64,000 nucleotides of DNA from Gammaproteobacteria bacterium (GTDB lineage Bacteria > Gemmatimonadota > Gemmatimonadetes > Longimicrobiales > Gaopeijiaceae). The stretch covers positions 1 to 64,000 of the forward strand of contig VXNP01000109.1 in NCBI GenBank assembly GCA_009840525.1. Reading direction: 5' to 3'. Of this stretch, positions 1 through 2,726 are shown piece by piece (position 1 is the first letter of the stretch; each line of letters starts with the position of its first letter). The position numbers and the translations under genes were made by a program. The notes beneath the pieces were generated by a model. The model was not told where the DNA came from and did no database searches. It saw only the letters and a list, made by a program, of their open reading frames with translations.

Positions 1-756
1 GTGGCGCCCGTACTCGCCCAGCCCGGCCTTGATGGCGAGCGGGATGGCCAGCGCCGAGTCGTTCATGCTGGCCACGGCCCGGTAGCCGAGATTGGTGATG
101 TACTGCGCGATGGCCAGCAGCACGATGGTGTCACGGGAGTAGGTGGCTCCCGTCGCGGTGCCGCTCAGCGCTGAGGGCGCCGTGCTCAGGACTTCCCGGT
201 CCATCGACTGTGCGATCACGATAACGTTGCCGAGATCGGTGGAGATCTCCTGCGGTTTCTCGTGCTCGTTCTCGCGGCTGTACGCATCCGTGTAGAGCCA
301 CCGCTCGTCGTTGCCGGTGATCCCCACCAGATCGGCGCCCAGGGTCTTCGCGGCGTGCTTGATCTCGCGCGCCGCCTCCTCGGGAGATTCCACCGGCAGC
401 GTGTGGCCCGGGCCCTCGCGGACAGCCGTGTACGGGTCCAGGAACCCCTCGCGGCGGTCATCGTCCCCACGCAGCTCGGCGAAGATGTCCGTCACATGCC
501 AGGACGCGTTGCGCAGCGCGTAGTCGCGCTGGGTGAAACCGTCGACGGAACGCCAGGTCAACTTCGGCGTGCGGTACGTCTCGTAGAACATGTCCGAGCG
601 GTGCGTGCGCACCTCAGGGTCCCAGAACGAGCGGCAGAAGATGTCGTCGCGCTGCGAGAAGCGCCGAAAGTCCTCCCGGATATCGAAGCCGGCTTCCTCG
701 TCGGAGACGGCGGATTCTGTATCGCGTGTGCGACCCGGGTTGGCAGAGTCGTTCAT
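1..756 (-). CDS. reductive dehalogenase-like protein, cut by the left window edge
   Basis: The visible N-terminal 252 residues start at ATG 756 and stay open to base 1. They contain a run like RDDIF-RSFWDPEV, then GFTQRDYALRNASW, LGADLVGIT and, near the edge, ASMNDSALAIPLAIKAG followed by AGLGEYGRH. That series is familiar from reductive dehalogenase (RdhA) catalytic subunits, which use cobalamin and two [4Fe-4S] clusters to remove halogens; the cluster cysteines would lie beyond the window. I see no twin-arginine signal or hydrophobic leader, so the protein should be cytoplasmic, unlike classical respiratory RdhA. Epoxyqueuosine reductase (QueG) is a distant relative and the main alternative, but the long N-terminal region argues against it. 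The start is supported only by a weak AGG next to the ATG. Confidence 0.7.
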   Translation of the reverse strand, partial: MNDSANPGRTRDTESAVSDEEAGFDIREDFRRFSQRDDIFCRSFWDPEVRTHRSDMFYETYRTPKLTWRSVDGFTQRDYALRNASWHVTDIFAELRGDDDRREGFLDPYTAVREGPGHTLPVESPEEAAREIKHAAKTLGADLVGITGNDERWLYTDAYSRENEHEKPQEISTDLGNVIVIAQSMDREVLSTAPSALSGTATGATYSRDTIVLLAIAQYITNLGYRAVASMNDSALAIPLAIKAGLGEYGRH

Positions 757-784: not shown

Positions 785-2122
785 CTAGCGGACAGCTTCC
801 GGCACCCGCTTCACGATGATCGTGGGGACATCGAATTCGTCCGTCTCGACGAAGGCGACGATGCCACCTGGCCCGAACGCCGCGGGCATCGGCGTCTCCT
901 CGAGGGAGAACGTGCCGACGTACTCGCCCTCCGCAGCGAGTACATCGATCCATCCGTCAGCCGCCTCGTCCGTCCCCAGCCCTGAGCCCGGGAACTCGAC
1001 CTGAGCCAATGGATCGCTCCCCCACCGTTGCACCCAGATCGTCCCCTCCCACGTCGTACGAAGATCGCGCACCAGAGGCACCTCGGGCATGAAGGCCGCG
1101 TTCTCCACCATTTCGCGCATGCCGGCCAGCATGCTCTCCATCAGGGCTGCGAACTGCGCGCGGAAGGCCTCCGGAACGTCTCCGCCCAAGTCCGAGGTGG
1201 TGAACTGCTCCTCGACGGACGCCTCGTATTCCTCCAGCACACGCGTGCGAGCGCGCTCGCGCAGGCGATCCGTAACGGCCTGTGGGTGAAGGGGCCGGCC
1301 CACGACGCGTGGCGGGGCATCCGCAGTCCGGATCTTTACGGCAAACGCGGAGGAATCCGAATACGCCACCCCGCCACCGGGGAGAACATCGAACACCAGG
1401 CGGGGCTCGAAGTAGGCGATTGCGCCGTCGAGCGCGGCGAACATGTCCAAGGGATCAGCGGCCTCGATCGTGACCTGCCGCTGTGGGCGCGGTTCCCAGC
1501 CCTCCGCGAACGGTATCGGGACGGCCTCTTCCCTCTCGTCGAGCGCCACGCCGTAGATCGTGCGGTCACCCGACGAAACGGATGCCTCCCCCTGGCTGAG
1601 GCTCGCGGACGCGCTTCGCGTCAGGAACAACGCGCCCCCGTCCCGCGCGGAGCGCACGATCTGCGCGGAACCGGCCCGGACGCCACCCGTATCCGCGAAG
1701 CGGAGCGCGCGTTCGAACGAGCCGTCCGGGCTGAACAGGAGGTAGGCGCGGTGTCCGGTGTCGACGAGCACGGCGCCGCCCTCGGGCCGAGCCACCATCT
1801 GCCCCACCTGCCGAAGCTCCCCCGGGCCGTCGCCCATGCGCCCGAACTCCGCCGCCAGGTCTCCGACCCCGTCAACGACCACGATGCGGGTAGAGGATCC
1901 CGCCTCGTCACGGACGTAGAGATGACCGCGCGCGTCGAAGTCCAGGTCAGCGATCTCCGTGAACGCGTCCCACCCTTCCGCCGCGATCCCACCGATCCGG
2001 TACACCTCCTCGAAGTCGGCCTCCAGCGCACGGTCCTCGCTCACGGGCGGAGCGGACTCTCCGTCGCTTTCGCTGCCACAAGCCGCCAGCAACGCGGCGA
2101 ATACAGCGTAACGTCTTCTCAT
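785..2122 (-). CDS. 6-bladed beta-propeller lipoprotein
   Basis: The protein begins MRRRYAVFAALLAACGSES, a short lipoprotein signal with the lipobox LLAAC, so it should be lipid-anchored outside the inner membrane. ATG 2122 is preferred because GGAGG lies 7-8 bases upstream; an upstream in-frame ATG at 2149 would bury the signal. The rest of the 445 residues is propeller-like: repeats such as LDFDARGHLYVRDE, FGRMGDGPGELRQV and LLFSPDGSFERAL are NHL/6-bladed beta-propeller blades. Two further family members occur at 7623-8855 and 13940-15148. No catalytic residues are recognisable. Binding or sensing of an extracellular ligand is a guess; the family is abundant in Gemmatimonadota without known function. 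Confidence 0.8.
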   Translation of the reverse strand: MRRRYAVFAALLAACGSESDGESAPPVSEDRALEADFEEVYRIGGIAAEGWDAFTEIADLDFDARGHLYVRDEAGSSTRIVVVDGVGDLAAEFGRMGDGPGELRQVGQMVARPEGGAVLVDTGHRAYLLFSPDGSFERALRFADTGGVRAGSAQIVRSARDGGALFLTRSASASLSQGEASVSSGDRTIYGVALDEREEAVPIPFAEGWEPRPQRQVTIEAADPLDMFAALDGAIAYFEPRLVFDVLPGGGVAYSDSSAFAVKIRTADAPPRVVGRPLHPQAVTDRLRERARTRVLEEYEASVEEQFTTSDLGGDVPEAFRAQFAALMESMLAGMREMVENAAFMPEVPLVRDLRTTWEGTIWVQRWGSDPLAQVEFPGSGLGTDEAADGWIDVLAAEGEYVGTFSLEETPMPAAFGPGGIVAFVETDEFDVPTIIVKRVPEAVR

Positions 2123-2300
2123 GAGACAACCTCCGGGGGGTCGACGCATGTCACGATGCCTGCATGTCGAAGGTTGCGCCAGCCTTGGTTGCCACGGGTC
2201 GCCGCGGATTTCCGCTATTCTGGCGCGATGGGACCTGTTGACCCGGCGTCACGTAGAAGATGATCGAGACTGCGCGGGAGGGCCAAGGAGAGACAAACCG

Positions 2301-2726
2301 ATGAAATCGAAGATTCTGCACTACTCCGGCGAGAAGGCGGCCGTGAGCTACGATGTTGGGAGATGTATCCACGCCGCCGAATGCGTTCACGGCTTGCCCG
2401 ATGTGTTCGACCCGGGCCGAAAGCCCTGGATCGATCCCGACCGCGCCGAGGCGGAACAGCTCCTCCAGGTGATCATGCGTTGTCCGACGGGTGCCCTGCA
2501 TCTGGAGCGAAGCGACGACGAACACGCCGAGCCCACGCCCGGGCGGAATACCGCGATCGTAGAGCGGAACGGTCCGGTCTACCTTCGCGGTGACCTGGAG
2601 ATCGTCACAGGTCAGGGCGAGGTTCTGCTCAAGGACACACGCATCGCGCTCTGTCGCTGCGGGGCTTCGGAGAACAAGCCATTCTGCGACGGAAGTCATG
2701 TCCGGGTCGGGTTTAAGGAGGACTGA
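2301..2726 (+). CDS. two-domain iron-sulfur protein (mono-cluster ferredoxin-like + CDGSH)
   Basis: This 141-residue cytoplasmic protein joins two metal sites. The N-terminal half has Cys22, Cys28 and a CPTGAL motif at Cys61, the pattern of the divergent 4Fe-4S mono-cluster domain (Fer4_19/DUF1271). The C-terminal end carries CRCG..ENKPFCDGSH with Cys118, Cys120, Cys129 and His133, the three-Cys-one-His ligand set of a CDGSH [2Fe-2S] domain. ATG 2301 is chosen because AAGGAG stands 10 bases upstream. Electron transfer or cluster delivery is the likely role but no partner gene is adjacent. It stands alone between convergent or divergent neighbours. Confidence 0.85.
   Translation: MKSKILHYSGEKAAVSYDVGRCIHAAECVHGLPDVFDPGRKPWIDPDRAEAEQLLQVIMRCPTGALHLERSDDEHAEPTPGRNTAIVERNGPVYLRGDLEIVTGQGEVLLKDTRIALCRCGASENKPFCDGSHVRVGFKED

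Follow-up and report, generated by a model that had tools for sequence, protein, structure and literature searches.

The minus-strand open reading frame at positions 1..756 of the window (the whole analysed DNA stretch of 64,000 nucleotides) was confirmed by sequence comparison as the N-terminal 252 residues of a reductive dehalogenase (RdhA) without Tat signal, the complete protein comprising about 400 residues. We consider it probable, with real room for doubt, that the gene encodes a stand-alone cytoplasmic reductive dehalogenase (RDase) dependent on a cobamide and two [4Fe-4S] clusters, which likely acts on ortho-brominated phenolics in a catabolic or detoxifying and not in a respiratory role. 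The gene is a common, conserved trait of the group to which the window belongs.

Identity and extent of the window gene

The assignment of the frame, taken from the list of open reading frames, was made by profile and structure-sequence matches. The fragment matched the RDH model TIGR02486 at E 7e-18 (65.5 bits, below the cut-off of 160.35 bits) and the Pfam Dehalogenase model (PF13486) at E 3.6e-5, slightly short of the model cut-off; since the latter model was matched in 0/14 control genomes, the match is not attributable to chance. PceA chains of known structure were retrieved at E 2.8e-19 (8q4h) and E 3.2e-13 (second PceA chain). The fragment contains the counterparts of PceA Tyr246 and Asn272 (placed by an alignment made on the relative L005), and the corresponding arginine and the iron-sulfur clusters fall beyond its end; the cluster cysteines were consequently read in relatives, the window gene stopping before them.

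The frame begins with an ATG at 754-756 and is still open at base 1. The window comprises bases 1-64000 of contig C82 (72,110 bases), which itself starts at base 1; because this base is a contig end, the cut is an assembly break and no biological truncation. The sequence left of base 1, which the initial annotation recommended to obtain, therefore does not exist in this contig, and the C-terminal half of the gene was present on no other contig of the genome when a full-length relative was used as query (sole further match: a QueG at C132); it is supplied, however, by the full-length relatives. In other genomes the gene is broken by contig ends as well (G010, with pieces on C76 and C103; G112; G002). 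Several genomes contain it in two copies (G290, G325, G366), which may explain the assembly breaks inside rdhA.

Conserved features of the full-length relatives

Relatives of the fragment were found at 56 loci, the best of them (L002-L007) with 92-96% identity over the whole fragment. Their complete protein has approximately 380-400 amino acids, the frames stopping soon after the second cluster. Both 4Fe-4S motifs, CxxCxxCxxxCP and C..CxxCxxxCP, were found with all eight cysteines in 51/51 rows reaching this region (core alignment of 55 rows, without L057, which has no N-terminus); the two clusters envisaged in the initial annotation are thus present in the full-length proteins. In L005, the Dehalogenase domain spans residues 178-275 and the clusters lie at 289-300 and 343-351. 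The solved structures matched by this protein were PceA (8q4h, E 7e-51; 4uqu, E 3e-50), 4ras, which we take to be NpRdhA (E 6e-29), and QueG (E 4e-11). PceA Tyr246, Asn272 and Arg305, presumably the catalytic residues, align with Tyr206, Asn232 and Arg265 of L005, three positions that were invariant in 33/33 rows of alignment A1; the eight cluster cysteines likewise correspond one to one.

The cluster spacing amounts to 54 in 52/52 family rows and to 49 in the fused enzymes; as PceA and some other Tat-type rows share the value of 54, it is not diagnostic of the family. The proteins end in a conserved, tryptophan-rich amphipathic tail that resembles the PceA tail (end of the L005-PceA alignment). 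A structure predicted from alignment A1 (33 rows) reached a mean pLDDT of 39 and was not used further. The viral contigs scanned contained no relative.

A weak similarity to QueG (62 bits for L005 on TIGR00276, cut-off 200) raises the question whether QueG or another iron-sulfur protein has been mistaken for an RdhA, a source of error that had been named beforehand. We regard this as scarcely credible: five relatives scored 59-68 bits on TIGR00276 and 159.9-196.9 bits on the RDH model (cut-off 160.35), where four of the five, L005 among them, lay above the cut-off and the fifth at 159.9, and the genome has its own, separate QueG (G000:C132) with 349 bits against the equivalog cut-off of 200.

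Individual copies deviated from the intact form. One copy from the window's genus is split over two frames (L094, G004:C49:254969-256116), either through a frameshift or through a sequencing error. Elsewhere in the same family, a genome consisting of a single contig contains no more than a fragment covering model positions 32-130 (L092, G034:C1:2408118-2408414), apparently a decaying copy. Flags of one stop inside the frame were not taken as signs of pseudogenes: they probably denote the stop codon that ends the gene, and G001 (L093) has a complete frame.

Predicted cellular location

In the window gene, 18 codons separate the ATG from the preceding in-frame stop and contain no twin arginine; the N-terminus is hydrophilic, and the highest 19-residue hydropathy of the fragment is 1.33. 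Four relatives (L015, L016, L018, L019) have just 14 codons between the in-frame stop and the conserved core, which leave no room for a signal peptide and make it impossible in these proteins. A clear membrane helix was found in none of the sequences: the top hydropathy values, 1.65 in several Acidobacteriota members and 1.61 in L002 and L023, barely exceed the cut-off (1.6, as used in the search for rdhB-like ORFs) and are located inside the folded domain. An rdhB-like small membrane ORF on the same strand within 1.2 kb was detected at 0/47 loci (of the 56 loci, the nine left out were cut copies plus the full-length L035); among the controls, the same test recovered PceB (L077) and the Dehalococcoides partner (L079), and gave a candidate at 7/11 Tat-bearing RdhA frames. 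The relatives' frames contain no fused C-terminal reductase. Both the Tat-less, plainly hydrophilic N-terminus described by the initial annotation and its view of a cytoplasmic enzyme, for which a nearby rdhB was to be sought, agree with these results, and the sequences suggest that the enzyme is most likely cytoplasmic and not of the exported respiratory type.

Two established types were considered and dismissed. A respiratory RDase would be recognized by Tat signal peptide and rdhB, neither of which is present; for a fused catabolic RDase (BhbA type), the frames end too shortly past the second cluster, and a common clade with the fused enzymes was rejected.

Phylogenetic position

Three maximum-likelihood trees were calculated from 47, 30 and 42 rows (the 47-row tree without L092, L093, L094 and L080; the two other sets omit further rows). 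The family formed one clade in all three, with support of 99-100. It grouped with the Tat-bearing PceA-type enzymes with support of 100/98 in the 30-row tree, more weakly (93/87) in the 47-row tree, and with 100/99 in the 42-row tree, some Tat-less paralogues of G451 and G416 being included in the latter case. A common clade of the family and the fused BhbA enzymes was rejected (AU test, p 0.0027 for 30 rows and 0.024 for 42 rows). A single clade of all Tat-bearing rows was rejected too (p 0.0037, 30-row tree), so that Tat is scattered over the lineages, a pattern that fits gain as well as loss; the test did not reject a clade uniting the family with Tat-less paralogues from G451 (p 0.163, 42-row tree). 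The economical reading of these trees would be that Tat was lost in the family clade, separately from the BhbA lineage. Because the family clade sits beside Tat-bearing PceA-type enzymes and apart from BhbA, cytoplasmic RDases probably arose more than once.

Further Tat-less sequences were observed outside the family. G451, from the phylum of L034, has seven RdhA-type matches, several of them Tat-less and outside the main family (L122, L123, L133), and is a candidate for a separate Tat loss. The Ardenticatenaceae genome G060 has four Tat-less frames of approximately 360 amino acids with CAMCxKC cluster motifs (L087-L090), which form a clade of their own, distant from QueG and from the remaining RdhA rows.

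Distribution and sponge hosts

The initial annotation had regarded the gene as unexpected in this lineage, a view at odds with its distribution: rdhA was found in 9/11 genomes of the window's genus, in 6/24 other genomes of the same family (one, G034, with a fragment) and in 1/24 other genomes of the same order, there as a Tat-type enzyme. In Gemmatimonadota, 77/395 genomes matched at E <= 1e-30 and 54 at E <= 1e-80. In the phylum of L034 (titled Thermoanaerobaculia), 47/247 genomes matched, 15 of them at E <= 1e-180; a cut of 1e-80 would admit a Tat-type enzyme in this phylum (G500, L124). Three loci titled Gammaproteobacteria (L002, L051, L057; RHO2_bin_50) contain a gene that is 95-98% identical; this title is a misassignment, because the bin corresponds to G010, which belongs to the same genus as the window.

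Aplysina is a bromotyrosine-rich sponge. The family occurs mostly in bacteria of marine sponges. For some carriers a symbiotic life in sponges is certain, among them Aplysina aerophoba bin 43 of the window's genus, and the name 'Palauibacter rhopaloidicola' together with RHO isolate names points to Rhopaloeides. According to the text available for PMC5649159, L010 and L032 correspond to A. aerophoba bins 43 and 94. Beyond Gemmatimonadota, the family has members in Acidobacteriota, Ilumatobacter and Ardenticatenaceae records; in consequence, sponge bromophenols cannot be assumed as substrate for every member.

Gene neighborhood and host genome

Neighborhood counts were based on an ad hoc gene caller that missed rdhA in 11/57 sequences; 24 loci, some of the missed ones among them, were laid out by coordinate. 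Directly upstream of rdhA, 28 bases before its start, the window encodes a putative lipoprotein of unknown family (785..2149, minus strand) that appears beta-propeller-like by eye and has no Pfam or NCBIfam match. Its homologues among the fetched loci are limited to L005 (87%, likewise immediately upstream of rdhA) and the distant L020; the gene is likely co-transcribed with rdhA in the window and is not a conserved partner. Divergently oriented, a small Fer4_19 and CDGSH iron-sulfur protein (PF06902, PF09360) follows at 2301..2726 on the plus strand. Homologues (86-95%) occur near rdhA in L002, L003, L004 and L006, all close relatives, and the protein is a possible electron carrier near rdhA, a candidate in close relatives only. 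In L002, the homologue and rdhA are direct neighbors in divergent orientation, 116 bases apart.

Palauibacter-like loci present the order sulfoacetaldehyde acetyltransferase (xsc), class-III aminotransferase, rdhA (L011 4827-9149; L013, L016 and others), in which no base lies between the end of the aminotransferase ORF and the start of rdhA; the xsc of L011 scored above the equivalog cut-off. This arrangement is a probable taurine-breakdown operon carrying an RDase. As a general partner, the taurine genes (xsc and aminotransferase) were rejected: other lineages have other neighbors, such as an ABC transporter beside rdhA in other Gemmatimonadota (L025) and a trehalose-phosphate synthase in Acidobacteriota (L034). 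Since no neighbor is general across the lineages, the context names neither substrate nor electron donor.

The host genome contains two COX1 genes and five B12-binding domains and has no CobA/CobO-type enzyme; on these grounds it fits an aerobe that uses corrinoids, which are probably imported. The aerobic background proposed beforehand is in keeping with this.

Proposed function and alternative readings

Family membership, motifs, catalytic residues of the relatives, absence of Tat and rdhB, and tree position are the observed basis of the proposed function; cofactor loading, electron donor, substrate and physiological role are what we infer. A cytoplasmic one-electron donor of the ferredoxin or flavodoxin type would reduce both clusters, and electrons would pass via the distal and proximal cluster to base-off cob(II)alamin, yielding cob(I)alamin as known from RDase precedent. 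The cob(I)alamin would then cleave the carbon-halogen bond; Tyr206 and Arg265 (L005 numbering) would presumably act as a pair in proton delivery and in halide or substrate handling. The substrates are likely to be ortho-brominated phenolics that reach the cytoplasm from the sponge host, a class suggested by sponge chemistry and the activity of Ros_A3X954 (see below); the resulting phenol would be less toxic and could be degraded further. Catabolic or detoxifying dehalogenation is most likely.

QueG has the same fold with another chemistry (epoxyqueuosine reduction) and is among the family's matches. By this analogy, the protein might be an RdhA-fold cobamide/Fe-S reductase with a non-organohalide substrate, e.g. 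for a step near taurine or other host-compound metabolism, in agreement with the several Palauibacter-like loci where rdhA follows the aminotransferase and sulfoacetaldehyde acetyltransferase genes without gap; the very high conservation across phyla indeed suggests a specific natural substrate. However, the three PceA catalytic residues are all kept, Tyr246 and Arg305 included, the best solved matches are PceA structures (E 7e-51 versus 4e-11 for QueG), the taurine context is limited to one group of loci, and a very similarly organized enzyme is a debrominase according to the text available for PMC13101508. A non-organohalide substrate is thus unlikely. We give still less credence to a respiratory-type RDase that, although cytoplasmic, is still coupled to the membrane, e.g. 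via the C-terminal tail, and acts as electron sink under sponge anoxia. The nearest relatives are Tat-bearing PceA-type enzymes, the tail is conserved and like that of PceA, and sponge tissue can be anoxic; nevertheless, Tat, rdhB and a clear transmembrane stretch are all absent, and to our knowledge the only RDases known to conserve energy are exoplasmic. The introduction of PMC13101508, as far as its available text extends, is consistent with this restriction.

A stand-alone cytoplasmic RDase of catabolic or detoxifying role is of a kind already known: Tat-less RDases without fused reductase have been reported (PMC3939436, PMC6737245, both as partial text), and one has been assayed. The clade in sponge symbionts seems unreported: in the titles and abstract starts of the searched literature, with most subscription journals and preprints outside, no description of the family in Gemmatimonadota or sponge symbionts was found, and the word stem 'dehalogen' has no occurrence in the portions of text available for PMC10469786, PMC5649159, PMC10581226, PMC10947273 and PMC8163846. 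We tentatively propose, as a conjecture that may well prove wrong, that this whole clade descends from respiratory enzymes of the PceA type which lost Tat and rdhB, independently of the BhbA lineage, and that its cytoplasmic RDases are widespread among aerobic sponge symbionts of at least two phyla (Gemmatimonadota and Acidobacteriota), where they disarm brominated defences of the host. Sponge debromination has been ascribed to Desulfoluna and other anaerobic organohalide respirers (PMC12203066, available text). If the proposal were true, a shared symbiosis factor would bring reductive debromination into aerobes alongside these anaerobes; with a conserved cytoplasmic RDase, aerobic symbionts would provide a second debromination route that does not involve respiration. 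Such an enzyme could explain symbiont tolerance of bromotyrosine-type defences and would demonstrate a repeated origin of catabolic RDases from respiratory enzymes. As the family is small, soluble and sequence-defined, the claim is testable in the published E. coli expression system.

Comparison with known reductive dehalogenases

The closest functional precedent is Ros_A3X954 of Roseobacter sp. MED193, a Tat-less marine enzyme that converts 2,6-dibromophenol to 2-bromophenol; in the available text of PMC13101508, its Dehalogenase domain is placed at 174-269 and its clusters at 283-294 and 337-345, with a spacing of 54. Like the family proteins, it is single-domain and Tat-less, its domain and clusters lie within a few residues of those of L005 at the same spacing, and its second cluster string, CAICMRVCP, recurs letter for letter in the family member L114. 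It differs in belonging to another phylum, and a purified enzyme exists for Ros_A3X954 only. As judged from its published positions and motif strings, it may belong to the family clade; these features support such membership and do not prove it. According to the same partial source, Ros_A3X954 loses its activity on oxygen exposure; 'cytoplasmic' alone therefore does not mean 'oxygen tolerant', which, by analogy, calls for caution with regard to an aerobic host.

The nearest solved relatives are the PceA enzymes of Sulfurospirillum and Desulfitobacterium (4uqu, 8q4h), which share the catalytic Tyr/Asn/Arg and all cluster cysteines with the family and are placed in a larger clade with it (30- and 42-row trees); PceA, unlike the family, has a Tat signal and is accompanied by PceB. 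BhbA and NpRdhA resemble the family as cytoplasmic enzymes without Tat, and brominated phenolics are their known substrates (PMC10463259, available text); the BhbA types, however, form a separate clade, have a cluster spacing of 49 versus 54, and possess a fused reductase.

Two further groups can be compared by their published, partially available descriptions. The Smkt1 RdhA cluster from subseafloor metagenomes (PMC3939436) has both Fe-S motifs, Tat in 0/12 sequences and one adjacent rdhB; its setting is anoxic sediment. RDases with N-terminal transmembrane helices (PMC6797604) share the lack of a separate rdhB with the family but differ in these membrane helices, and TM-type rows formed another clade in all three trees.
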